This document shows, piece by piece, positions 36,188 through 58,641 of a DNA stretch of 64,000 nt. Under the pieces are notes generated by a model. That model made no database searches and was not told the DNA's origin. It saw nothing but the letters and a program-made list of their open reading frames with translations. Each line of letters opens with the position of its first letter. The first letter of the stretch is position 1. The DNA is from a virus: positions 1 to 64,000 of IMG/VR virus record IMGVR_UViG_3300042896_000648; one strand, given 5' to 3'. A program made the position numbers and the translations under genes.

Positions 36188-39100
36188 CTACAAGGTTTGT
36201 TTATACTTATTTTGCAATACGTTTATCTTTTTACTCCTAGTCTGTAGGTAGGTATTAAATCCGCTCTTGTCTACTTGGTTTACTATTTTAGCTTGCCCTT
36301 GTAGTGCTAGTAGGTCTTTTCTTAGTCCTTTTATCTCTTTCTCTAGTTTTGAGTTATCGTTCTGTATTCTATTCACTATATTTGGTGTAATGCCCTTCAA
36401 GTTCACGGTGTCGTAGTTCATAATCTTATTCATTACGTCATTACGGGTCATTCTTACGCCTCCATTACTTCTTGTCATAGTATCCACTTGTTCCTTGCTG
36501 AATATCTGTTCATCAGGGTGCAATATTGCTTGAAATCCTCCCTTGTTGTCTACTCGTCTTCTTGGTGCATTCTCGCTAGTATTGTCAGTTCCTTTATAGA
36601 ATGGTTTTATAGGTTCGGCAGGAAGTTCTTGTTTTGGAGGGTCAGGAATAGCTCTTAATAAAGCATATATAGTTACAGCAGAAGCGGCAGCTATAACCAA
36701 TCCAACTACAAGTGATGTAGCAGCTAGTTTAGCTGTCATTATCGCCACTTGAATACCTATCTCTACTGCCGCTAGTGCTTGCGATACCTTAAGTTCCTGT
36801 ACCTTTAGTTTATATTCAGCATCTATTCTCGATACCTCTAGTTGCCACAGCTTATAATTCTTTTCGTATTCCAATTCTGCATTAGCTTTATCTGTAGCTT
36901 CTTTTTGCGCTAATAAAGCGGCATCTTTAGCTATTTTTGCATCTATTTCTACTTGGTCAAAAGTTGTACGAGAGTTAAATAGGTCTGCTTTTTCTTTTTG
37001 GTCTATCTTTACTATTGCATCAGACGCTTCTTTTACTATTGAATTTACAGTATCCGTTCTTGCAATTACAATTTCTTTTGTTTCGTCTTTTTCAACAAGA
37101 AGTGTATCTACTTTTTGCTTAGTAGTAGCTTTAAGGTCTGCTAAATCAGATGCTTGGCTTGCTTTTGCTTTGTCGCTAATAGCTTTATCTGTCGATGCTA
37201 TGTCATTTGCATAAAGTTTTCTTATTCTAATATCTTCTGCTAATGCATCTATTTTTATTCTATTTATTTCATTTTGTATATCTTGTGTAGCCGCTTGGTT
37301 TATTACAAGGTCTTTAAGTTCTTCTACTTGTGCTTCACGTATTTTTTGTACACCTTCATTTACTATTTTCTCAGCTTCATCACGCCTCCTTACATCTTTT
37401 GCATTTAAGCTTTCATTATACAGTTCTCTAAGTGCAAGTTCTTCATCCCCAGCTTTTTTATTTATCCTCTGTGCCTCTTCATTATTTACGGCGAGTGTTG
37501 TTAATGCTTGCGATGCTCTTGCTAATACCTTATTCCTTTCTGCTGCCGCAGCGGCTTCTATACTAGCATCCTTTTTAAACTGTGCATCTGCTCTTATCTT
37601 TTCTTCCTTGTCAAATCCATCTTGAAGTAGTGCTAGTGCATCATCTTGTGCTTTTTTCTGTACTGCTATTTTTTGGTCATACCCAGTCTTTGTATTCTCA
37701 ATCTGCCTGTTTATTCCATCTAGTTCTAATGCGGTTTGCCTTATAATAGCACTACCTATAACATTAATGGCAAGTTTAGCGTACTCTCCGTATTTTTGTG
37801 CAGATATTGCTATGTGCTCCTCTTTTAGTTTTTTACTAGCTTTATTATACTCCTTTTCAATTTCTTCCAATTCCTTTGAGCCTTTTTTTGCATTCTTTCT
37901 CGCCTCGGCATAAGTTTCCTCTAGCTTTTTTACTGCATCCCTATTTAGCTTTAGATTTTCCCTAGCAGCTTTAACGCTATTTATTACACTTCCAACAGAA
38001 TCTATTAAATTATTAACAAATGCTGCATTTACCTTAGCTGATGCCGTTCCAAAGTTCCCGTAAGCAGTTGCTACACTTTTTAATGCTGTTTGCGTTCCTT
38101 TTAGGAAGTTTTCAATAGTTTTTAATCTAGCTATCTTATTATTTACTTCTATTCTTTCTACCGCATCAAGAAACGCCTTAGTATCTTTCTTTATCCTATC
38201 ATTATTCTTAGTCGTGTTTTCTAGTTTCTTTACTTGGTATTTACCATCTAATTCTACGAGTTTTCCGTAGTGCTTTTGTGTATCTAGTTCTATCTTTAAT
38301 ATCGCACTTTCATTCTCTTTATCTATCGCTTCATTGCTTATTTTTATCGCATCTTCCCTGTCTTTACCTTCTTTTAGTATTAGCTTTATGTTGTCGGCGG
38401 CCTTTTGTTTTTTAAACTCAACAGAGTATTGTAGTGATGTTATTTCATCGCTATTGTTTTGTATTTCAGCAAGAAGTCGTTTTCTTTTTAGGTCATATTC
38501 TAGTTTGTCGTATTTTACGCTTATCTGATACTTTTCTTCTTCGCTTTCAGCTTTAGCTAGTTCACTAGCTTTCATTAGGTCTAGGTTAGCTTCTTCTGCA
38601 TCTTCTACAATGGCTTTCTTAGCTACCTCTAGTTCTTTAAGCAGTTTTATGCGCTCCTTATCAGCTTGCTCAATTGTTTTTAGGTTTTCTTTACTTGCTT
38701 CTTCTACAAGCTTATTTTCCTTTATGGCATATTTTTCTAAAAGCTTAGTTGTTTTTAAAAATACCTCTGCTTTCTTGCCGTATCTTTCATTGGCCTCTAG
38801 TATTTCAGCCTCTCGCTCTTTTTCTAATAGGTCTAGCTTATCTCTTAATCCTTCTTGTCCAAGCTCTTTTAGCAGTTCTATTTCTTTCCTTCTGTTCTCT
38901 AGTTCTTTACTTGGCTTAAATTCCTTCGCACCTTTTCCTGCTCCACCTCCTGCACCAGCCTTTATGTTATCACCCGCAGTACCTTGTATTCCTTTTATAT
39001 ATTCAGTATATTCTTTTTCTATTCTCATTTTGTCTTTTAACCCTTTTGCATTTTCCAGGTTTATATTCTTCTGTATTAATGCATTATCTAGCAAAGACTT

Positions 39101-41314
39101 TGTTTGCTTGTCATTTGTTTCCTGCGTCATTTGAGCATATCTTTGCAAGTTTATTGCACTTATACTTAGGTTTTTTTGGCTTGCTAGTAAGTCTGCTTCA
39201 GCACTTGTTATTTTTTCACCGGTTGTACTTGCTACTTTCCTTCTAGCTTCAAGTACTCTTTGCTGTAGTGAAAGATTCTTGCCGTTCTCTTCATTTACTC
39301 TTTTTAATGCTTCGGCTTCATCATCTAAATATCCACCTCTTCTTTTTAATTGCAAATCCGACTTATAGGCAATATCGCTTAATTCTATTCTTAAATCAAA
39401 TGCTTTGTTTACACTTTTTAATATCCTTTCTAATTGCTCATTCTTGGTGTTTTCAATATCTATTAACCCAAAGTATTCAGGGTACTTGTTCTTTAGTATC
39501 TCCAATTGCACATTCCTAGCTTTCGTGTTATAGGCGAGGTCTTTAATCAATCCTACTTGTGCTGTTATTTGAGCTCTCGATTCCTCTAGTTGTCTACCTT
39601 CTTCACTATGTAGTTTTATAGCTTCTTTTTGCTCTGCATTAAAGTATTGGTATGCTACAAAAGCGGCTGTGATAGCTATTCCTATTACACCCATCGCCAG
39701 GTTTAAGGTTCTGAATGATGTTGCGGCTGCTTGGTTAGCTACTGTTAATGCTACTGTATCTGCCGTTAATCCTACTTTTGTTTTTGCATCTGCCGCAGTT
39801 ATTATAGCTGCATCTATTTCTATTGCATTGCCTTTTAGCATAGCTACACCAAGTGCATTTTGTGCTAGTATTAATTCAGCTTCAGCTGCTACAAGTGCTT
39901 CTTTCGCTGCTACATTAGCTAACATAACTGCACCCATCTGTGCCATTCCTGTAGTTTCTTTAGTATCTAATAATACCTTTCTGCCTTGTATCAGCATGCC
40001 TACAGTGTACGTTCCGTTATATAGGTTTCTTATTATAGTTCCTGTGGCTACTACACTGTTCACTATCGCTTGTTTTGCCGCTATTATTCCTTGTATTATA
40101 GCCGCTGCATTCATAATAGTTTTCCACGCTAACAGTCCTTGTACAAGGCCTGAAAATACTGCTACTGTTCTATTTACTGCATTCTCTGTTCCAAATAGTG
40201 CTGTTACTATATTATTAGTGGCATCAACTATGCTTTTAGCCATGGCACTAAAATTGTCTCCAATGGCCGCTTTAGCAAAGAATATATTATCCTTCAATAT
40301 ATCCATCTTACCTTTTACGGTAGTGGCTAGTATTGTCATTGAGTCCGCAAATACTCCTCCTGCATTTCCTGCATCTAGTATTGCTTTTTTAAACTCCGAA
40401 AATCCTACTTGTCCATTGTGTATTCTTTCTTGTAGTTCCGATACCTTTATTCCTAGGTTGTCGGCAAGTATCGCCATTAAAGGAAATCCCGTTTCAGCTA
40501 TTTGCCTTACCTCTGTACCCATTAGCCTTCCTGCGGCTTGTACTTGGGTAAAAGCGTACGTAAGTCGCTCTAGCTTATCACCGCCTCCCAATGCACTAGC
40601 CGAGTTTCCAAGGCTTCTTAGTGTTGGTATTACGTCTCTTGATATTACTTGTGACGAAAGCCCCACTGCTTTCATTGAGCCTACAAGTTGGTTTACACCT
40701 TTTATAGTTTCTTCAAACGTAAATGGGGTTTCTGTAGTAAATTGTTGGAATTGTGCAAAAAGTGATTTTCCACTTACATTTCCTAGTAAGTTTCCTAGTG
40801 TAAGTTTTAGTGCCTCTACTTTACTTTGCGCATCAAATATTGACCTTGCAAAATCTGTAACACCAGTAACTCCAAGTGCCACTCCAAATGTTGTTAGAAT
40901 ACCACTAACTTTATTTAGCGATATTCCAAAATCTTGTGTACTTTTAGTCTTCGCTACATTGTCTTTTATTACTTGGTCTTTAGCGAGCTTACTAGCCGTT
41001 ATTTGTGCTAGTGAGGCTTGTTTAGCGGCAGACTCTTCAGCTATTGCGGTTGCTCTAGCGGTGGCTATTTCCGCTTTTGAATTGGCTTCTTTATTTCTCC
41101 TTCTATTGTCAGACCGAATTATTGACCTATTTAAAGCAGTGTCTTCCAAGTTAGCTAGGTTAGCTATCGAGGTTTTCTGTTGCTCATACAAGTCTTTATA
41201 TGACTTAGCTACAACCTTTAGGTCGGCAGTCATAGCCTTTAAAGTACCTGTTACTTTTAATAAATCATCTAGGTTCTTTACTTGTATTTCAAAGTAAACG
41301 GTTTCATTAGCCAT
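36188..41314 (-). CDS. Tail tape measure protein
   Basis: 1708 residues from ATG 41314 (an upstream TTG would add two residues). The tape_meas_nterm pattern occurs at about 220-310 (L-R-S-L-G-N-S, T-E-V-R-Q-I-A-E-T-G-F-P). Long Lys/Glu/Ala coiled coils fill residues 600-1500, and hydrophobic segments occur around 540 and 1560. The C-terminus has a Lys-Gly-Thr-Asp and a H-P-D-E-Q turn. Its length sets the tail length, roughly 0.15 nm per residue in the family, so a long flexible tail. The tail assembly chaperone gene is directly upstream. Confidence 0.93.
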   Translation of the reverse strand: MANETVYFEIQVKNLDDLLKVTGTLKAMTADLKVVAKSYKDLYEQQKTSIANLANLEDTALNRSIIRSDNRRRNKEANSKAEIATARATAIAEESAAKQASLAQITASKLAKDQVIKDNVAKTKSTQDFGISLNKVSGILTTFGVALGVTGVTDFARSIFDAQSKVEALKLTLGNLLGNVSGKSLFAQFQQFTTETPFTFEETIKGVNQLVGSMKAVGLSSQVISRDVIPTLRSLGNSASALGGGDKLERLTYAFTQVQAAGRLMGTEVRQIAETGFPLMAILADNLGIKVSELQERIHNGQVGFSEFKKAILDAGNAGGVFADSMTILATTVKGKMDILKDNIFFAKAAIGDNFSAMAKSIVDATNNIVTALFGTENAVNRTVAVFSGLVQGLLAWKTIMNAAAIIQGIIAAKQAIVNSVVATGTIIRNLYNGTYTVGMLIQGRKVLLDTKETTGMAQMGAVMLANVAAKEALVAAEAELILAQNALGVAMLKGNAIEIDAAIITAADAKTKVGLTADTVALTVANQAAATSFRTLNLAMGVIGIAITAAFVAYQYFNAEQKEAIKLHSEEGRQLEESRAQITAQVGLIKDLAYNTKARNVQLEILKNKYPEYFGLIDIENTKNEQLERILKSVNKAFDLRIELSDIAYKSDLQLKRRGGYLDDEAEALKRVNEENGKNLSLQQRVLEARRKVASTTGEKITSAEADLLASQKNLSISAINLQRYAQMTQETNDKQTKSLLDNALIQKNINLENAKGLKDKMRIEKEYTEYIKGIQGTAGDNIKAGAGGGAGKGAKEFKPSKELENRRKEIELLKELGQEGLRDKLDLLEKEREAEILEANERYGKKAEVFLKTTKLLEKYAIKENKLVEEASKENLKTIEQADKERIKLLKELEVAKKAIVEDAEEANLDLMKASELAKAESEEEKYQISVKYDKLEYDLKRKRLLAEIQNNSDEITSLQYSVEFKKQKAADNIKLILKEGKDREDAIKISNEAIDKENESAILKIELDTQKHYGKLVELDGKYQVKKLENTTKNNDRIKKDTKAFLDAVERIEVNNKIARLKTIENFLKGTQTALKSVATAYGNFGTASAKVNAAFVNNLIDSVGSVINSVKAARENLKLNRDAVKKLEETYAEARKNAKKGSKELEEIEKEYNKASKKLKEEHIAISAQKYGEYAKLAINVIGSAIIRQTALELDGINRQIENTKTGYDQKIAVQKKAQDDALALLQDGFDKEEKIRADAQFKKDASIEAAAAAERNKVLARASQALTTLAVNNEEAQRINKKAGDEELALRELYNESLNAKDVRRRDEAEKIVNEGVQKIREAQVEELKDLVINQAATQDIQNEINRIKIDALAEDIRIRKLYANDIASTDKAISDKAKASQASDLADLKATTKQKVDTLLVEKDETKEIVIARTDTVNSIVKEASDAIVKIDQKEKADLFNSRTTFDQVEIDAKIAKDAALLAQKEATDKANAELEYEKNYKLWQLEVSRIDAEYKLKVQELKVSQALAAVEIGIQVAIMTAKLAATSLVVGLVIAAASAVTIYALLRAIPDPPKQELPAEPIKPFYKGTDNTSENAPRRRVDNKGGFQAILHPDEQIFSKEQVDTMTRSNGGVRMTRNDVMNKIMNYDTVNLKGITPNIVNRIQNDNSKLEKEIKGLRKDLLALQGQAKIVNQVDKSGFNTYLQTRSKKINVLQNKYKQTL

Positions 41315-41334: not shown

Positions 41335-41706
41335 TTATTTATTTTTGCGGTTCTGTTTTTCAATCTCCTCGTTCTCTTTCTCTATACTCTTATTCAGTTG
41401 GCTATTATAGCCTATATAGTCTAGTATTCCTAGCTTTTCAGCATCAAATTGGCTACACCTAAGGTAGCCCGATAGCCTCGTACAGCTTTCCTTAAAGGCG
41501 ACAATTGTGTTGAACCTTGCAAGCCCTCTTGTAATCTCGCTATATCTAATATTAGTGAATTTCTCATTAGGTTCGCTTCCGCTATCTGTGATTCGCTTTT
41601 CACTTGGGTTGAAAGCATATTGAATTGACTGAATAGTTTCGTTAAGCCTGCTGATTGCAAGTTCAGACTTTTTGAGAAAAAAGGGAGTAGTCTGCCTTGC
41701 TCCCCC
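41335..41706 (-). CDS. Tail assembly chaperone, -1 frame extension
   Basis: This frame is open from a TGA at 41707-41709 to a TAA at 41335-41337 and has no good start of its own. From the slippery site onward its reading is clearly protein-like (charged, balanced composition, long helices, a Lys/Glu-rich end) and it finishes 20 bases before the tape measure ATG, exactly where a lambda gpGT-type extension belongs. Read through a -1 shift it adds 113 residues to the first 166 of the 0-frame protein. Confidence 0.65.
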   Translation of the reverse strand, partial: GGARQTTPFFLKKSELAISRLNETIQSIQYAFNPSEKRITDSGSEPNEKFTNIRYSEITRGLARFNTIVAFKESCTRLSGYLRCSQFDAEKLGILDYIGYNSQLNKSIEKENEEIEKQNRKNK

Positions 41707-42173
41707 TCAGCAGCGATAGCATTTGCCCATAGTGTTATCTTTTCAGCGTTGGTGTTAAAGTCTACCTTATAGGGGTCTTCTTTCTTCATTATATACACTA
41801 GGCTTGCTAGTTCTAATAACAGTCCAGTTTGATCCAATTCTTTTTGGTGGCTCTTAAACACCTTCAGCGTGATTAAAAGTGAGTTTAATTTATCCTTAAT
41901 ATCGTGGTCATCTACATTCACGTTTAGTAGTTGTTCTATAGCGTCTTCTACATAATCCTTAGCTACTTCGTATGTCATTCCAAACTTTTCAAATGAGTTT
42001 ACCGAACTTTGTATCTGTAGATACCGGAGGGTTGGCATTGTATCGTAGTCGCCTGTAAATGAATAGAACTCAATTCCATTTAAATCGAAATCGGGTTCTA
42101 AGTTTACTATTCCTAATTTTTGGCATTCTTCAAATTGCCCACAAGCTGTATTTTCTTTCAAATCTTTTATCAT
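41430..42173 (-). CDS. Tail assembly chaperone, 0 frame
   Basis: 247 residues from ATG 42173 (upstream in-frame codons overlap divergent promoter B). Residues 1-166 look like a normal acidic helical chaperone. After the slippery site the 0-frame reading turns Leu/Ser/Arg-rich and unlike a folded protein until a TAG at 41430. Position before the tape measure gene fits the gpG/gpGT chaperone pair that coats the tape measure protein. Either the 0-frame tail is a real short-lived form or one base is missing or extra in the T run. Confidence 0.65.
   Translation of the reverse strand: MIKDLKENTACGQFEECQKLGIVNLEPDFDLNGIEFYSFTGDYDTMPTLRYLQIQSSVNSFEKFGMTYEVAKDYVEDAIEQLLNVNVDDHDIKDKLNSLLITLKVFKSHQKELDQTGLLLELASLVYIMKKEDPYKVDFNTNAEKITLWANAIAAEGEQGRLLPFFSKSLNLQSAGLTKLFSQFNMLSTQVKSESQIAEANLMRNSLILDIARLQEGLQGSTQLSPLRKAVRGYRATLGVANLMLKS
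41676..41682 (-). promoter_or_regulatory. Candidate -1 ribosomal slippery site
   Basis: On the minus strand TTTTTTC is read T-TTT-TTC in the 0 frame, a classic X-XXY-YYZ heptamer. A -1 slip here enters the frame that continues to 41335. Confidence 0.65.
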
Positions 42174-42246: not shown

Positions 42247-42271
42247 TCCATAATTTAAATGAAAAGGAAAA

Positions 42272-42520
42272 ATGGAAATTACAATTAAAAAAACAATCGA
42301 AGAAAAAGTTCAAATTAGCCTACCAGCCTACTATAAAACTTCGGCACATCAATTCAAGATTTATAGTGATACGCATTGTATATCTGTAACTGAAGCAGGA
42401 ATCCATCAACTACACGCTGATTTACCATTTGCAATAGATGCGAAAGAAAGTACTGAATTAGAGTTTATGGAATTCTACAAAAAAGTAAATAACCAATTGC
42501 ATGAAATAGTAAATTTATAA
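42272..42520 (+). CDS. Hypothetical protein
   Basis: 82 residues. Strand-rich start, a His-rich middle and an acidic helix at the end. First gene behind promoter B. Function unknown. Confidence 0.55.
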   Translation: MEITIKKTIEEKVQISLPAYYKTSAHQFKIYSDTHCISVTEAGIHQLHADLPFAIDAKESTELEFMEFYKKVNNQLHEIVNL

Positions 42521-42529
42521 AATAAAAAA

Positions 42530-42838
42530 ATGAAAATAGAAACTTATTTATCAGAAAAAGGATTTGATGTATACGGGTATCACGAAAAGTATACACAAGA
42601 TTGGTCGAAGCTATCCACAGAAGAATGTCTTTGGGCATTAGAGCAGGAAGAGAATGTAAATACATTTTTTATTCACGATGGTAAAACGCTTGTTTTTAGT
42701 AGGTTCGATATAATCTTGTCTATACAATTAGATGCTGTCGATAAAGCCATTCTCATTCAAGTACGCAACGTTTATAGAGCTAGTGCCAACAAAAAACAAG
42801 AACAGTTTCAAGCTAAATTAAGAGAGATTAATGGATAA
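42530..42838 (+). CDS. Hypothetical protein
   Basis: 102 residues. Trp/Tyr in the first third, then helices. Overlaps the next gene by eight bases. Function unknown. Confidence 0.55.
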   Translation: MKIETYLSEKGFDVYGYHEKYTQDWSKLSTEECLWALEQEENVNTFFIHDGKTLVFSRFDIILSIQLDAVDKAILIQVRNVYRASANKKQEQFQAKLREING

Positions 42839-43166
42839 GAAAAGAGAAACAGTACTACTACTTATTGGTACACTTCAGGCATCACTTGGCTATATCGACT
42901 ACTCGCTTGATACTAAGATATTCTCAAACGACCTTAAATTCACCGCTAAGAACTTCTTAGTTAGGTTAGAAAGGTGGTTTAGTGCTTATTATAAGTTGAA
43001 TAAAGATGAAACAGAGGAGGTTGCCAGTCAAATAGAACTCCTAATCACCTTATACGAAAACTCTGCTAAAATAGCTTTTCAATTAAACGAAAAAGGCGAG
43101 GTAGTGCAGGATAATTTTATGAATGAATTTAATGAGTTAGTTAAACGTTATAAGATAGAGATATGA
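42831..43166 (+). CDS. Hypothetical protein
   Basis: 111 residues, nearly all helical, acidic. ATGA overlap with the RlpA-like gene. Function unknown. Confidence 0.55.
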   Translation: MDKKRETVLLLIGTLQASLGYIDYSLDTKIFSNDLKFTAKNFLVRLERWFSAYYKLNKDETEEVASQIELLITLYENSAKIAFQLNEKGEVVQDNFMNEFNELVKRYKIEI

Positions 43167-43438
43167 AAATACTAATAATATGTACATTTTATGCCATGTC
43201 GTTTCAGGGCAAGCTTACGTCTTCAGGCACTAGGTTTAGTCAGTCCGAGTATACTTGTGCTACACGCCTTTATCCTCTTGGTTCGGTGCTTCGTGTATCA
43301 AGCAAGGGTCGTAGTGTAGTAGTTAAAGTATCCGATAGGTGTCGTAGTTATAAAACTATTGATTTAAGCAGGATAGCTTTTTCAAAAATAGGTGATTTAA
43401 AACAAGGTAAATTAAACGTTAAAATAGAAAGAATATGA
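43163..43438 (+). CDS. RlpA-like double-psi beta-barrel protein
   Basis: 91 residues. A short signal (1-14) precedes the RlpA pattern: G-T-R-F-S (22-26), L-Y-P-L-G-S-V-L-R-V (36-45), V-V-V-K-V-S-D-R-C (52-60), T-I-D-L-S (65-69) and a final K-L-N-V-K-I strand. RlpA enzymes cleave denuded peptidoglycan glycan strands. The catalytic His normally just before L-x-L-G is not present (Thr-Arg-Leu-Tyr here), while the Asp remains, so activity is doubtful. Three Cys are unusual. An exported envelope role is likely. Confidence 0.7.
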   Translation: MKILIICTFYAMSFQGKLTSSGTRFSQSEYTCATRLYPLGSVLRVSSKGRSVVVKVSDRCRSYKTIDLSRIAFSKIGDLKQGKLNVKIERI

Positions 43439-43851
43439 ATAAATTAGGTATTAAAGTCGGGGATGTGGTTGCATGGGGTTCTAAAAGAAATGCTTGCGAA
43501 GTTAAGGAAGTTTATAGTACTTTTTTTTATGTAAATAGTTCAAGCTCCACTATTTCATTTACTGAGCCAAATCTTGAAATAGTCAAAAAAGGAACTAAAT
43601 CACTCGAAGCCAAATACGGAATCATTTTGATAAATAAGGAAATGTGGTGTTGGGATGACAATATAGAAAACGCATCACTACTTTTTGTTATTACAAAAAA
43701 TTCAAATGGTTTTTTTGTTTCATGCGATGGGAATATATGGAGAAATGCATCACTAGAAAAGCCGAACAAGACATACAAGCCAAACTTGGTGTTTTTGGAT
43801 GACGATTACACGAAGGAGGAAATGATAAACATTATAAATGACCTTAAATAA
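43435..43851 (+). CDS. Hypothetical protein
   Basis: 138 residues. The start V-G-D-V-V-A-W-G-S and strand pattern recall small SH3-like barrels; several Trp. ATGA overlap with the RlpA-like gene. Function unknown. Confidence 0.5.
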   Translation: MNKLGIKVGDVVAWGSKRNACEVKEVYSTFFYVNSSSSTISFTEPNLEIVKKGTKSLEAKYGIILINKEMWCWDDNIENASLLFVITKNSNGFFVSCDGNIWRNASLEKPNKTYKPNLVFLDDDYTKEEMINIINDLK

Positions 43852-43856
43852 ATAAT

Positions 43857-44120
43857 ATGTCAGCACGAGAAGATTTTGGTTACAATGATAACCCATCAAT
43901 TAAAAAAACAGAAGTATTTATAAATAAAATTTTAAATAAACCTGAAAATGAAAATACAGAAAAAGAAAAATTTGCAATTGATTTTGCTAATTGGGTTGAT
44001 GAATTATCATATACTTCCAAATGTTCTGTTTGGTCAAAAGATGGACAGCATAGCGGTCTTTTTAAAATGGATAATGAGCAATTGATGGATAAATATAAAA
44101 ATTTATTAAAAAAAAGATAA
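43857..44120 (+). CDS. Hypothetical protein
   Basis: 87 residues, Lys/Glu/Asn-rich, helical. Shares a base with the next ATG (TAATG). Function unknown. Confidence 0.5.
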   Translation: MSAREDFGYNDNPSIKKTEVFINKILNKPENENTEKEKFAIDFANWVDELSYTSKCSVWSKDGQHSGLFKMDNEQLMDKYKNLLKKR

Positions 44121-44326
44121 TGTTTAATTGGAAATTTTTAAATGTTTGGATGTCAAATGATGTTGTAGAAAGACACTATAAATGTCAAAATACAGGTGCT
44201 TATAGATGTAAGGAATATAAGTTGGGTAAAAGTTACAAAACAGTTACTTATTGCTTGCCTGATTCAGAAAATTATAATATTAAAACAGAACAAGAATTAT
44301 TGGACATTATAAACGAATTAAAATGA
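44120..44326 (+). CDS. Small hypothetical protein
   Basis: 68 residues. Trp-rich start, three Cys in the middle, helical end. Coupled to both neighbours by overlaps. Function unknown. Confidence 0.5.
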   Translation: MFNWKFLNVWMSNDVVERHYKCQNTGAYRCKEYKLGKSYKTVTYCLPDSENYNIKTEQELLDIINELK

Positions 44327-44526
44327 AAAACGAAACGATTGAAGAAGCTGCTAATAGAGAATGGGGCAATATTCATAAAACAGGCGTATTGGGTTTTATA
44401 GAAGGTGCAAATTGGCAAGCTGAAAGAACTATTGACTTTTTGAATGTATTATTACAAAAAGACGTGTGTTCGGTTTATGGAATTGAAATTATTGAAAAAT
44501 ACATATCAGAACTAAAACAAAAATAA
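44323..44526 (+). CDS. G-A-N-W-Q family small protein, copy 3
   Basis: 67 residues. E-T-I-E-E-A-A near the start and E-G-A-N-W-Q-A-E-R (27-35) match the pair at 22987-23446. Its presence in a second operon shows spread of the family within the genome. Function unknown. Confidence 0.6.
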   Translation: MKNETIEEAANREWGNIHKTGVLGFIEGANWQAERTIDFLNVLLQKDVCSVYGIEIIEKYISELKQK

Positions 44527-44527
44527 A

Positions 44528-44824
44528 ATGAAAAACGTAATCAATAATGTAATTGAGTGGGCAGAAAATAAAGACCTACTTAAAAAAGAAAATTCATATC
44601 CGCAATTCGCAAAGGTAGTGGAGGAGGTTGCCGAAATTGGAACGGCATTAGGGAGTGGAAATGAAGCTGAATTGATTGATGCTATTGGGGATACGATGGT
44701 AACTTTGATTATATTAGCAAAGCAAAACGGATTAGACATTGAAGTGTGTCTTGAAACAGCTTACAATGTGATTAAGAACAGGACAGGAAAGACTATAAAT
44801 GGAACATTTAAAAAAGATAAATAA
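44528..44824 (+). CDS. MazG-like nucleotide pyrophosphohydrolase
   Basis: 98 residues. V-E-E-V-A-E-I (31-37) and D-A-I-G-D (51-55) are the two acidic MazG helices that hold Mg ions; residues E32, E33, E36, D51 and D55 are in place. Such enzymes hydrolyse nucleoside triphosphates and in phages may clean the nucleotide pool or lower ppGpp. Single-domain size fits. It pairs logically with ThyX in nucleotide control. Confidence 0.8.
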   Translation: MKNVINNVIEWAENKDLLKKENSYPQFAKVVEEVAEIGTALGSGNEAELIDAIGDTMVTLIILAKQNGLDIEVCLETAYNVIKNRTGKTINGTFKKDK

Positions 44825-45063
44825 TGGCAACACAAATAAACATTAATCCAAAAACAGACTTCAATCCGTATGTTTCGCAAAGTCATAATTATAAACCATT
44901 ATCAGATGAATCCGAAATACGAAAGTTGATTTATATTGATAATATGAAAAAGATGCGACTTTCACAGCTAGATGCTGAAATAGAGAGAATTTACGACAAT
45001 AATTTAAAGCTTGAAAAAATAAGAACACAATTAAAAAAATGGTATAAAGAAATAAAAAACTAA
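44824..45063 (+). CDS. Hypothetical protein
   Basis: 79 residues; disordered start, long coiled-coil end. Shares a base with both neighbours. Function unknown. Confidence 0.5.
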   Translation: MATQININPKTDFNPYVSQSHNYKPLSDESEIRKLIYIDNMKKMRLSQLDAEIERIYDNNLKLEKIRTQLKKWYKEIKN

Positions 45064-45350
45064 TGAAAAAAATACTCTTATTACTCTTAATGTCTTGCAA
45101 GCAAGAATCCATTGAGCCTTCTCGTCTTTTCTATGTTCGAAAAGATTGGGATTTAGACCGATATTCTAACGTTACAGGCTATCCTGAATATCCGCAAGTA
45201 CAAGAGCTTTCTGTGCCACTTTCTAAGGCTGTAAATGACACTTCTATAGTGTGGTTTACAGCCACTAAACTAGATTATACAGGCAAAGCATCTTATGACG
45301 ATTACAAGGTTAAGAGGAAGTTAATTACTACTTATCGCAGGCTACAATGA
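45063..45350 (+). CDS. Small lipoprotein, paralogue of 28043-28312
   Basis: 95 residues. Signal ends L-M-S-C (Cys12). D-L-D-R-Y-S-x-x-x-G-Y-P-E-Y and the ending V-K-R-K-L-I-T-T-Y-R-R-L match the other lipoprotein. Both follow small genes in coupled operons, so they may do the same job at different times. Confidence 0.6.
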   Translation: MKKILLLLLMSCKQESIEPSRLFYVRKDWDLDRYSNVTGYPEYPQVQELSVPLSKAVNDTSIVWFTATKLDYTGKASYDDYKVKRKLITTYRRLQ

Positions 45351-45526
45351 TGTATATTAATATTCATACAGGCCAGATATATGACGTGTACAAAAAAGAC
45401 GTAGTTACAGTTAAGGAAAAAAAACGCACTACCGAAAAGAACGTTCTGTTTATGAAGGGTTCTTCAGATGAATTTCGTGCTGTAGATGATTGGAATAAAT
45501 TTGATACCTTTATAGAATATAAATAA
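45347..45526 (+). CDS. Small hypothetical protein (59 aa)
   Basis: 59 residues, two possible ATGs in a row (45347, 45350). Strand-rich with basic middle. The last codons form the left arm of the terminator hairpin, so coding and termination overlap. Confidence 0.5.
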   Translation: MMYINIHTGQIYDVYKKDVVTVKEKKRTTEKNVLFMKGSSDEFRAVDDWNKFDTFIEYK

Positions 45527-45547: not shown

Positions 45548-47482
45548 TTATAAGTCTAATGTATAAGGAACTAAAATACTTGCTAATTGTAGACCTTCAT
45601 TCATTTGTATTAAATCAGCTTCTATACCAGTAATATCAGTATTTTCAAGAGCATCTACTTTAGTCTTAATTTCTTGCGAAGTTGATTCAAGAGCTATTCC
45701 AGTAAGGTCAGTATTTACTAAAGTGTCAGTTTTATCCTTTATACTCTGCGAAGTGCTTTCTAAAGCTACTAAGCTCAAATCAGTATTTTCTAAAGCATCT
45801 ACTTTAGTTTTAATTTCTTGCGAAGTTGATTCTAGGGCTACTAGACTAAGGTCAGTATTTACTAGCATATCAGTTTTTGTTTTAATACTCTGTGATGTAG
45901 ATTCTAAGGACACCAGACTAAGGTCAGTATTTACTAAAGAATCAGTTTTTGTTTTAATACTCTGTGATGTAGACTCTAGTGCAACTAGACTTAAATCTGT
46001 ATTCACCAAAATATCCGTTTTGGCTTTTATTGCTGTTATATCGCTGTTATTTGGTGCTGTATAGCCTGAAGTTGCTAATCTTGAACTTACCGTTACATCC
46101 AACTTTGTTGAATTACTATCTATCTCTGCTCTAATTGACGAAGCTGTTGGCGGTGCTGTATAACTTGAACTTGCCAACCTTGAACCTACTGTTGCATCCA
46201 ATTTTGTAGAATTGGTGTCAATTTCGCTCCTTATCGCAATTGCTGTAGGTGGTGTTGTATATCCACTTGTTGCAAGTCTGCTTGAAACCGTTGCATCAAC
46301 ATTATCTTTCAATAATTTTCCAAAACTTCCAACCGTATTAAAATCAGTTCCTGAAAGTAATTTTGTTAATATTTCAGTTGCAATTAATGCCGGTGTAGTT
46401 GAATATGTACCTACTGTATTATCGGTCGCCACGTCCTTAACTACGTTACTTGGTGAAGGCACTATCAAAGTTCCTGTTTGTGTTCCGTTATTGTAAGTTA
46501 TTCCGCTTCTTACATTGGCAATTGCCGGAACTAAGTTTGATACGTTCAATGGGTCCGATAATGCAACTGTTGTTCCGTTCTGTTTTAAAACATTGGCTGT
46601 ATTATCAGTTCCATTTTCAAATCTAATATAGCCTGAAATTGGTGTTTGCCCTGCCGAACCGAAAATAATATTTTTTACTCGTGTAATGCCGCCCAATACT
46701 GCACCATTTACCCCAGCTGCTAGTATATTGGTTGATGAACTTGCGGTTGCTGTAGTTACTGTCAAAGTTCCTGTACTTGCATTATTTGCCCCTGACGCTC
46801 CGGACACTATTCCTCCCGTGGAGTTTCCTATTATGGTAATTATGCCTATGCTCGTGTTCTGTGTGCCAAAATTACTTGTTGCACTACCACCATTGCAATT
46901 ACCTGTTATATTTACTGTTCCTGAACTATTATTTCTAGCACCATGAGCATCTACCCCACTACCACCATTGCAATTACCTGTTATATTTACTGTTCCTGAA
47001 CTATTATTTCTAGCACCATCACTTCTACCGGTTCCACTACCGCCATTGCAATTACCTGTTATGTTTACTGTTCCTGAACTATTATTATTGACGCCATAAG
47101 TATCTAACGAACTACCGCCATTGCAATTACCTGTTATAGTAAATGTTCCTGAACTATTATTATTAATGCCATACGATGCAGATGCACTACCACCATTGCA
47201 ATTACCTATCCAATTGCAACCATTAGCTGTATAAGTTAAGCAAGCTGTTGTTCCTGCATAAATATCAGCTGTGCCATTATAGGCGGTTGATAACGTAAAA
47301 CCACCTCCGGCATTAATACCCGTATTGGATTGGGTACGAATACTTAATACATTTATTACCTGATTGACGGTAACAGTGAAGCCATTGGCATAAACATCAT
47401 CTGAACTTGTTGGTAACGCTCCCGTATTCCAAACGGTAATATCACTCCAATTGCCTGTTTTGGTCGCATATACATTAGCCAT
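45548..47482 (-). CDS. Repeat-rich tail fibre protein
   Basis: 644 residues. Residues about 90-230 hold five to six copies of a 25-residue unit with core N-N-S-S-G-T-V-N-I-T-G-N-C-N-G-G-S and a variable 4-6 residue insert. Residues about 405-500 hold three copies of a roughly 31-residue unit (S-R-L-A-T-S-G-Y-T). Residues about 500-620 hold five to six copies of a 24-residue unit (T-S-Q-S-I-K-T-K-T-D). This is a parallel beta plus coiled-coil fibre, likely receptor binding. It is the distal end of the late block. Confidence 0.75.
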   Translation of the reverse strand: MANVYATKTGNWSDITVWNTGALPTSSDDVYANGFTVTVNQVINVLSIRTQSNTGINAGGGFTLSTAYNGTADIYAGTTACLTYTANGCNWIGNCNGGSASASYGINNNSSGTFTITGNCNGGSSLDTYGVNNNSSGTVNITGNCNGGSGTGRSDGARNNSSGTVNITGNCNGGSGVDAHGARNNSSGTVNITGNCNGGSATSNFGTQNTSIGIITIIGNSTGGIVSGASGANNASTGTLTVTTATASSSTNILAAGVNGAVLGGITRVKNIIFGSAGQTPISGYIRFENGTDNTANVLKQNGTTVALSDPLNVSNLVPAIANVRSGITYNNGTQTGTLIVPSPSNVVKDVATDNTVGTYSTTPALIATEILTKLLSGTDFNTVGSFGKLLKDNVDATVSSRLATSGYTTPPTAIAIRSEIDTNSTKLDATVGSRLASSSYTAPPTASSIRAEIDSNSTKLDVTVSSRLATSGYTAPNNSDITAIKAKTDILVNTDLSLVALESTSQSIKTKTDSLVNTDLSLVSLESTSQSIKTKTDMLVNTDLSLVALESTSQEIKTKVDALENTDLSLVALESTSQSIKDKTDTLVNTDLTGIALESTSQEIKTKVDALENTDITGIEADLIQMNEGLQLASILVPYTLDL

Positions 47483-47485
47483 GTC

Positions 47486-47764
47486 TTATATTGCTTTACT
47501 TGTTAAATATTCCTGAATAGCTGATTTAACCTTACCAACCGCCAACAAAATATGACTATCTGAACTTGCCATAATATTAGGAAAGATAATCGGTTTTGGC
47601 ATAAATTCAGGGTCTGTTAAAAATTCATTTATCCCGTTTTCGGTTCTCATTGGTGTTAAAGTCAACACCGTTGCAACTCCGTTTTCATTTTCGTTAATGA
47701 CCAAACTAATTCCGTATTGATCCCAAATCTTACCGCCTGCTTCAAATGGTTGTGTAATTATCAT
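47486..47764 (-). CDS. Hypothetical late protein
   Basis: 92 residues, strand-rich, three bases before the fibre gene. Probably a small tail or fibre partner. No domain recognised. Confidence 0.55.
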   Translation of the reverse strand: MIITQPFEAGGKIWDQYGISLVINENENGVATVLTLTPMRTENGINEFLTDPEFMPKPIIFPNIMASSDSHILLAVGKVKSAIQEYLTSKAI

Positions 47765-47775
47765 ATTATTGTTTA

Positions 47776-48654
47776 TTAAAAATATCGTTCTATAATTAAG
47801 TTACTCAAAACACCACCGCTAAAAGTTGAATAAAAACTGTCAATCCCTGTGGCAACGTATCTGTAACGGTTAATTGAACCTGAATATAGATAAGTGTAAA
47901 CCGTTCCCCCCGTTATTAGTGTGGTTGTAGTCATTGTTCCTGCTGTTACCAAATCAATCCAACTAAACTTGTTCTTCCAAAGTCCCGAGCTTGAATCATA
48001 AAATAATCCCTGCCTATTAAGTTGTGATGCAATAGTTACATCTTGTATATCATCTAAACTTATTGCAGAACTAGAACTTGCAATCCACTCTACATTATAA
48101 TCAGTTCCATCAATCTTAGCTAATACATCTCCTTCTTCTCCGCCTGGCGGTATTCCTATTACACTTGTAGTACAGTCTTCACTTTTTCTTTCTCTACAGC
48201 TATAGTTGTATTCAGTAGTACAAGATAGTGAAAAGTCATCTCCTATTATTACTTTATACTCTCCTGCATAGTTTTGGAATGGCCTATTTTCATCTTCTAC
48301 AAAGTATTTATCATATATTCCTTGCGAATCTAGGGTTACGTCTACGCTATTAAACTCACTCGATAGTAACCCTAATACTTCTTTATAGTCATCATAATCA
48401 TCTGAAAGTATAGTTATAGTAAGTGGTACTTTTGAATAGCCTGATTGGTCTACTGTAAATGGGTCTACTGTATAAAACACGAGCACTCCTCTATCATACG
48501 TCACGGGTGTAAAGTTACTTGTTTGCCCTACTTTTCTTAATACGTCTACCATTTCGGTATCTATCCTAGATTTCGTCATTTCTACTAACCCTGCGTATTT
48601 TGCACGGTCATCGAATACGCTTTCTAAAATATCTTGTACGTCTTGTAGTGTCAT
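47776..48654 (-). CDS. Tail-associated virion protein
   Basis: 292 residues. Residues 1-135 look like a small tail-terminator-type alpha/beta domain (V-F-Y-T-V-D, I-T-I-L-S-D-D-Y). A Cys-rich stretch (C at about 144, 152, 160) follows, then G-I-P-P-G-G and a fibre-like C-terminal domain with D-I-Q-D-V. A fusion of a tail-completion domain and a fibre domain is the best reading. Confidence 0.55.
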   Translation of the reverse strand: MTLQDVQDILESVFDDRAKYAGLVEMTKSRIDTEMVDVLRKVGQTSNFTPVTYDRGVLVFYTVDPFTVDQSGYSKVPLTITILSDDYDDYKEVLGLLSSEFNSVDVTLDSQGIYDKYFVEDENRPFQNYAGEYKVIIGDDFSLSCTTEYNYSCRERKSEDCTTSVIGIPPGGEEGDVLAKIDGTDYNVEWIASSSSAISLDDIQDVTIASQLNRQGLFYDSSSGLWKNKFSWIDLVTAGTMTTTTLITGGTVYTYLYSGSINRYRYVATGIDSFYSTFSGGVLSNLIIERYF

Positions 48655-56864: not shown

Positions 56865-57434
56865 TTATAGGTAAGTTTCCTCTAAGTATCTTCTATAATA
56901 AATAGCTTCCAATTCTGTTTCAAATGATTTTTCATATATAATCTTATTCACAGAAAGATATGCGTGCCAATTATTCCATATCTTATTATAAGAAACTCCT
57001 ATATTTTTATTATTACATCTTCTGTTCCAACACTGTTCGTGAGGAGTAGCCCATCTGCAATTTTCTTTACAATAGTTACCATTTACATCTATTCTATCTA
57101 TAGAATGTATTTTGGATGGTTTATCTCCCATGTCTCTAAGAAATATATTAAAATCATTAAGCCATTCATCACTCATCTTTATACCCCTTCCTCCATAATA
57201 CTTATATGAATGATTGCTTTTATTATAACATCTTGCTTTTATTCTACTCCATGTATTGTATAATGGGTTATTGTGCCTATCCTCTCCACACACCTTACTT
57301 ACATAATCTATATCACCATATCTAATATATCTAGTATAGTGCTTACTGCAATAACCTCTCATTAAATATTCTTTACCATTCACGATTCTTAGCTTTGATG
57401 TACATCCATCAACTTTACATTTTTTATCTGTCAT
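56865..57434 (-). CDS. AP2-domain HNH-like homing endonuclease
   Basis: 189 residues. An N-terminal zinc region (C6, C11, C29 with H32) precedes the same Y-Y-G-G-R-G-I, S-I-D-R-I-D and N-C-R-W-A-T-P-H-E-Q core as the gene at 2494, and an AP2-like C-terminal domain (N-I-G-V-S, W-H-A-Y-L). It is inserted between late genes, which fits a homing endonuclease. Its AT content is higher than its neighbours. Confidence 0.75.
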   Translation of the reverse strand: MTDKKCKVDGCTSKLRIVNGKEYLMRGYCSKHYTRYIRYGDIDYVSKVCGEDRHNNPLYNTWSRIKARCYNKSNHSYKYYGGRGIKMSDEWLNDFNIFLRDMGDKPSKIHSIDRIDVNGNYCKENCRWATPHEQCWNRRCNNKNIGVSYNKIWNNWHAYLSVNKIIYEKSFETELEAIYYRRYLEETYL

Positions 57435-57441
57435 TTTTTTA

Positions 57442-58641
57442 TTATTTAAACCAATAAGGATAATGATTTTTGATATTCTCTTTCTTATTTATATTAAAGA
57501 ATCTAAATCCGGACTTAGTATTAGAAAAATTACTTTTTACCCAATTGCTAGGTGGCGAGAATGAAGGGTAGTTATAATATTGGAAATCTGTACTTGTACT
57601 ATCATCAAATAATGAAAGGTGTGAATCTCCTTTAGAAAACTCTATGAAATTTCCATCATATAATCTATTCTCCTTGCAGAAGTGATCTATTTTCTTAGCT
57701 TGCTTATCATCTAAATGTGGTTTAAAACCAAATTTTAATGCTTCTGAATCTTTACCATGAGATGTTATAAATGTATGATTTCCTACCTTATAAAAGTCTA
57801 TAAATTTCTTTTGGCTATTTACCTGTACGTTGGTGTATTTTTGTTCTAATATTCCTTTTATTGCTTGGCTCACAAAGTACCCAAATACTCCACTATGATT
57901 ATCCTCTACAATATTGTTGCATATTATCTTATCGTACCTAGTTATTAATGAATCTACCAACTTTACTCCAAACCAAACGCCTAAATCAAATGATTCTTTG
58001 TCATTCATATTTTGCGGTAATTCATGCCCTCTCCTAGTAGTTTCTCCACCTAGTCCATCCATATAATCACCTAAGTTATCTATAATCAATAAGTCTGATT
58101 TCTTATTAGTTATAGTATGATTTATCATTATACTTAATCTACTAAGAACTTCTTCTTTATCCCATTTTCCGTCATATAAAGGGTCTCCATTACCTCTTAC
58201 ATCCATTCCTATATGAGTGTCTGTATAAACAAGCCTATCAAACCATTCATTGTCTTTTTCCTCTTTATTTATATAAAAAACAGGCTTAATATGCTTGCTG
58301 ATTACTTCCTCGAAATAGTTTGGTATGTTTAATAGTTTATCGTCCTCTGTGGTGTAAAAAACTATATTATAGAATGGTATTGCGGTGTGGCTTATAAGTT
58401 TGTAGCTTCTTATTTTACTGTGGTCTAACTTATAATAATCACAGTACTCTTGAATGTTCATTAATAGTCCATCTAGTCCTATTGCTGTAAATCCTTTTAT
58501 TTTGTAGTCGTTACTCTTTGTTGTGCTTTCTTGTGGTTCTGTCTCTACTCTTTTTCCATTCTTTGCTACTTCTACTCCTTCATTTTTACGAAAAGCTTCT
58601 ATTAAGTTGGCTTCCTCGTCACTGAGTCTTAGTCTTGGCAT
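57442..58641 (-). CDS. Calcineurin-like metallophosphoesterase
   Basis: 399 residues. D-T-H (141-143), G-D-Y-M-D-G (191-196), E-D-N-H (246-249) and S-H-G (294-296) are the metal-binding motifs of the calcineurin-like phosphoesterase superfamily, as in DNA-repair nucleases and phage phosphatases. The N-terminal 130 residues include a DNA-binding-like start and a helical domain. Its place among late genes suggests a nucleic-acid end-processing or packaging role, unproven. Confidence 0.82.
   Translation of the reverse strand: MPRLRLSDEEANLIEAFRKNEGVEVAKNGKRVETEPQESTTKSNDYKIKGFTAIGLDGLLMNIQEYCDYYKLDHSKIRSYKLISHTAIPFYNIVFYTTEDDKLLNIPNYFEEVISKHIKPVFYINKEEKDNEWFDRLVYTDTHIGMDVRGNGDPLYDGKWDKEEVLSRLSIMINHTITNKKSDLLIIDNLGDYMDGLGGETTRRGHELPQNMNDKESFDLGVWFGVKLVDSLITRYDKIICNNIVEDNHSGVFGYFVSQAIKGILEQKYTNVQVNSQKKFIDFYKVGNHTFITSHGKDSEALKFGFKPHLDDKQAKKIDHFCKENRLYDGNFIEFSKGDSHLSLFDDSTSTDFQYYNYPSFSPPSNWVKSNFSNTKSGFRFFNINKKENIKNHYPYWFK

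Follow-up and report, generated by a model that had tools for sequence, protein, structure and literature searches.

A viral tail assembly chaperone gene with a predicted −1 frameshift and two proposed alternative C-terminal ends in one overlapping stretch

Frameshifting in the tail assembly chaperone gene is textbook recoding, and the unshifted product is usually treated as the bare part common to both proteins. The slippery site of phage lambda G/GT (PMC5009743) lies close to the 3′ end of the G gene. This frameshift is described as conserved among tail chaperones despite low sequence similarity (PMC5009743), so a Pfam or PHROG match does not define genes of the G/GT kind. TP901-1 likewise makes both gpG and gpGT from one gene; their ratio matters for functional tails, and the slip site is described as matching the 3′ end of gpG (PMC4493119). 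The gene described here resembles lambda G/GT in being a single gene adjoining the tape measure gene, with a heptamer for a −1 slip, a common N-terminus, and an extra domain in the −1 frame, and like that of TP901-1, it is proposed to yield an unshifted and a shifted chaperone. The detailed layout is not that of lambda. Whereas the lambda slip falls near the end of G, the unshifted product here continues for 81–96 selected codons (the range in the family), with 243–288 nt between the slip and the 0-frame stop in the analyzed sequence, its relatives, and a distant locus (L043). Most of the −1 tail therefore lies inside the 0-frame stretch, whereas a lambda-type −1 domain lies mostly beyond the 0-frame stop; the long double-coding overlap also sets the gene apart from TP901-1 gpG/gpGT. 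Phages commonly shift frame in this gene, but a twice-coding stretch this long is unusual. A search for dual coding in tail assembly chaperones found none in the library covered, and an earlier description may exist.

The gene lies on the minus strand of a 64,000-nt window (the whole stretch of DNA analyzed) contained in a virus record of 78,548 bases (IMG/VR IMGVR_UViG_3300042896_000648). The 0-frame ORF (41430–42173, −) encodes a G-like product of 247 aa and ends in TAG at 41432–41430. A second in-frame ATG is present at 42251, 5′ of 42173; the latter is most likely the start, because the relatives begin at the equivalent position. The first 166 codons (41676–42173, −) are common to both products and lead into the slip site CCCTTTTTTC, which reads CCC-TTT-TTT-C and comprises two overlapping X_XXY_YYZ heptamers: T_TTT_TTC in the 0-frame register (41676–41682, −) and C_CCT_TTT (41679–41685, −), also in register and giving the same protein product. 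Beyond the slip, the 0-frame tail (41433–41675, −) runs for 81 codons in a stretch that also codes in the −1 frame. That second frame opens after a TGA at 41709–41707, 24 bases 5′ of the heptamer, and its T-like tail of 113 codons (41335–41676, −) ends in TAA at 41337–41335. The part of this tail beyond the 0-frame stop (41335–41429, −) codes in a single frame, and substitutions among relatives fall there on −1 third positions. A preliminary description of this DNA had given the frame boundaries (TAG 41430, TGA 41707–41709), the T-TTT-TTC heptamer at the switch, a −1 frame ending 20 bases before the tape-measure ATG, and a 0-frame tail of about 80 residues, long compared with that of lambda. 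On recomputation the boundaries matched to the base, the heptamer was in X_XXY_YYZ register, the 20-base distance was exact, and the tail counted 81 codons. The lambda-like gene order and tail-chaperone identity that it proposed were also supported. The chaperone gene lies directly 5′ of a tape measure gene (36188–41314, −; ATG at 41314) recognized by Pfam (TMP_3, 5e-21) and PHROG (tape measure, 9e-25). This 1710-codon ORF is directly 3′ of the chaperone, the large terminase (Pfam Terminase_3, 2e-26) is also on the 3′ side, and the chaperone’s neighbors in the relatives’ loci are syntenic with the window.

Relatives were reached solely through a tape-measure alignment. Direct searches with the chaperone in viral contigs, phages, and genome contigs gave no matches, and in the phage collection neither the chaperone nor the sequence surrounding the slip site was matched. 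When the terminase and the tape measure were each used as a single query, no relatives emerged; all matches to them in the phage collection were distant. Aligning five distant tape-measure N-termini led to 80 IMG/VR loci, 7 of them 47–50% identical in the tape measure; L117, L118, and L121 were later additions to the relatives, with the same layout as the others. After near-identical records were merged, three lineages resulted: the window, clade A (L041, L117, L118, and L121), and clade B (L036, L040, and L042). A scan of genome contigs with a closer tape-measure alignment found nothing that would name a host; Bacteroidota would be a guess drawn from the distant phage relatives.

With tblastn, six loci matched the common chaperone part (E 4e-9 to 4e-32; L037 is truncated), and seven matched the −1 tail (E 4e-7 to 6e-11). 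The common N-terminal part is 34–40% identical in the relatives (E 1e-27 to 4e-32 for the full-length ones), and the −1 tail is matched by profile at E 4e-13. In all six loci that cover both parts, the −1 tail is offset by −1 from the 0 frame. Every relative covering the slip site carries T_TTT_TTT at the homologous codon with the same −1 transition, which is the conserved slippery heptamer that the preliminary description had proposed looking for in related phages. In 15 clear ORFs of the window, 30 of 6504 codons (0.46%) carry a slippery heptamer of some kind in register and none carries T_TTT_TTC in register, which puts the probability of a chance in-register heptamer within the 8 codons preceding the switch at ∼4%; because the site is conserved in the relatives, a chance origin was dismissed. 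With both parts conserved and always in the −1 relation, the −1 frameshift of the tail assembly chaperone first read from the window is supported, and comparison across loci strongly supports a programmed −1 frameshift of the lambda G/GT-like kind.

The 0-frame tail had been taken for non-protein-like sequence, and this part of the earlier reading does not stand. The 0 frame is open for 81–96 codons after the slip in every relative, the very distant one included, and for 94–96 codons in the relatives that reach the 0-frame end. We permuted the synonymous codons of the −1 protein and recorded the share of trials in which the 0 frame stayed open: openness by chance, given the −1 protein, was 0.0035 in the window and 0.0008–0.0076 in close relatives. 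Substitutions were counted in three close and independent pairs (L041/L117, L121/L118, and L036/L040). At 0-frame codon positions 1, 2, and 3, there were 27, 15, and 155 changes before the slip (420 sites each), 12, 17, and 30 in the overlap (284 sites each), and 4, 15, and 4 in the −1-only stretch that follows the 0-frame stop. At 0-frame third positions, the changed share was thus 155/420 ahead of the slip and 30/284 within the overlap (p 6e-16), the drop expected if the −1 frame constrains the overlap. At −1 third positions, it was 15/49 past the 0-frame stop, in a short control region of 49 sites, and 17/284 within the overlap (p 4e-6), a drop that points to a constraint from the 0 frame. 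Suppression of both third-position classes is present in each third of the overlap, and a second set of close pairs agrees (p 3e-9 and 2e-7). The window’s own 0-frame tail, compared with −1-synonymous permutations, gave p ≤ 0.0003 for L041, L117, L118, and L121 and 0.005 for L036; these comparisons and the substitution comparisons share common ancestry and are not independent tests. Judged by the permutations, the window’s tail is similar to those of its relatives beyond what −1 homology explains. As patterns of sequence change, these results show both frames of the 243–288-nt overlap to be under selection.

At the distant locus L043, whose tape measure is 31–35% identical, the same arrangement recurs. 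The first part of a 245-codon ORF matches the chaperone profile (score 36.9 against a shuffle maximum of 12.1) and is followed by a T9-G slip run and an 81-codon 0-frame tail. The −1 ORF has 106 codons; from its end to the first ATG in the tape-measure frame there are ∼190 bases, and the 0 frame was open in 2.2% of −1-synonymous permutations. Neither L043 tail could be aligned by profile to the tails of the other loci, so they share the layout only.

We surveyed ∼78 loci with recognizable tape measures. As in the window, most have a −1 ORF that ends near the tape-measure start and overlaps the ORF 5′ of it, and a slippery heptamer in register is usually present; there is thus nothing unusual in the basic two-ORF −1 arrangement. 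Most of the overlaps fall short of the 81–96 codons that follow the slip in the window’s family, which stands at the long extreme among the loci surveyed. In 13 of the longer cases, with 0-frame tails of 28–69 codons, the openness test saw no constraint (P 0.1–1.0). Moderately long open tails of this unconstrained sort in other chaperone families would be in keeping with a programmed frameshift that is real and a 0-frame tail that is functionless read-on, open by accident, as would the weak profile similarity of the window’s tail to those of the relatives (score 10.6; shuffle mean 3.2, maximum 11.1). We regard a functionless tail as unlikely, given that −1 third-position changes are suppressed over the whole overlap in the relatives, that the 0 frame is open in every lineage, that the permutation test, window included, goes the other way, and that comparing clade A with clade B shows higher identity in the 0-frame tails (62–65%) than in the overlapped −1 tails (52–55%).

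We consider it very probable, from these comparisons, that the gene encodes a G/GT-like chaperone with a −1 frameshift and two alternative C-termini in one dual-coding stretch. Most ribosomes would stay in the 0 frame and make the 247-residue G-like protein, and a minority would slip back one base on CCC-TTT-TTT-C to make a GT-like protein of 279 residues, its first 166 identical to those of the G-like protein and its last 113 its own. By analogy with lambda and TP901-1, the unshifted chaperone would be abundant and the shifted one rarer. Both would form a coat on the tape-measure protein; following the lambda analogy, the −1 tail would recruit tail-tube subunits. From these systems we infer that the slip is ribosomal and occurs at a useful rate, and that the two products act as chaperones. 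The unshifted protein would end in 81 selected residues of its own (94–96 in close relatives), and the 243–288 bases after the slip would for this reason encode two protein ends. We lean toward the further view that each chaperone has its own functional C-terminal domain from these same bases, a domain swap and not an extension. A conserved overlap of ∼80–96 codons under two-frame selection suggests an unshifted protein with its own end domain in the window’s family, and makes the role of the majority chaperone directly testable through stops that are silent in one frame. For annotators, a 0-frame tail after a slip site should not be written off as junk.

The frames could also be joined by slippage of RNA polymerase on the T run instead of the ribosome. 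The relatives’ runs are nine consecutive T, long enough for polymerase stuttering, but the window has a run of only six, with CCC before it and C after it; this is short for polymerase slippage and is a classic tandem ribosomal slip motif. Ribosomal slippage is the more likely of the two in the window, and we rate polymerase slippage as quite improbable, although the T9 run of the relatives may permit it there. The prospect that the −1 ORF is a separate gene overlapping the chaperone, with a start of its own, is slighter: TTG codons do stand in the relatives’ −1 frame just 3′ of the slip, but TTG is not conserved where the slip run is, and a scan of the window’s −1 ORF found no ATG, GTG, or TTG. 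The remaining alternative, raised in the preliminary description because of the long 0-frame tail, was that the frame is continuous and its T run, a homopolymer at the switch, was missequenced or misassembled; it is excluded because independently assembled relatives repeat the −1 transition at the homologous place, both parts are conserved, and both frames are under selection 3′ of the slip.

A conserved stimulatory RNA structure was sought at the slip site in the window and relatives and was not found. In the window, L041, L036, and L043, downstream folds did not outperform shuffles; in L117 and L118, they were mildly better (z −1.4 and −1.6), and a GGGAG/CTCCC hairpin just 5′ of the slip was hardly above shuffles (z −0.6). 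Rfam gave no match, and the chaperone and its tails gave no match of substance in Pfam or PHROG. AlphaFold models were of low confidence (mean pLDDT 44.8 and 56.4), and Foldseek with the low-confidence −1 tail model returned no match at E ≤ 0.001.

Several other features of the window were recorded. A plus-strand cassette of small genes (42272–45526, +), including a DPBB/RlpA-like protein (43163–43438) and a MazG-like protein (44528–44824), interrupts the minus-strand tail region and separates the chaperone from the gene at 47776–48654, whose homolog immediately precedes the chaperone in the relatives. Also between these two genes (45548–47764, −) lie a repeat-rich protein of 644 codons and a small ORF, and no homolog of either was found among the relatives’ loci. 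Antisense to the tape measure runs an open frame of 542 codons (39669–41297, +) that matches relatives by tblastn and is probably a by-product of tape-measure codon use. A phosphoesterase-like protein (57442–58641, −; PHROG 22398) has relatives 53–71% identical in 27 virus records, in which neither the window’s tape measure nor its chaperone was found; these records are therefore uninformative for the slip site, and their distribution suggests horizontal exchange of the phosphoesterase-like gene. Finally, two small proteins encoded far apart on opposite strands (2494–2940, +, and 56865–57434, −) share wording such as SIDRIDVNGNY and NCRWA and are possibly products of mobile homing-type genes.
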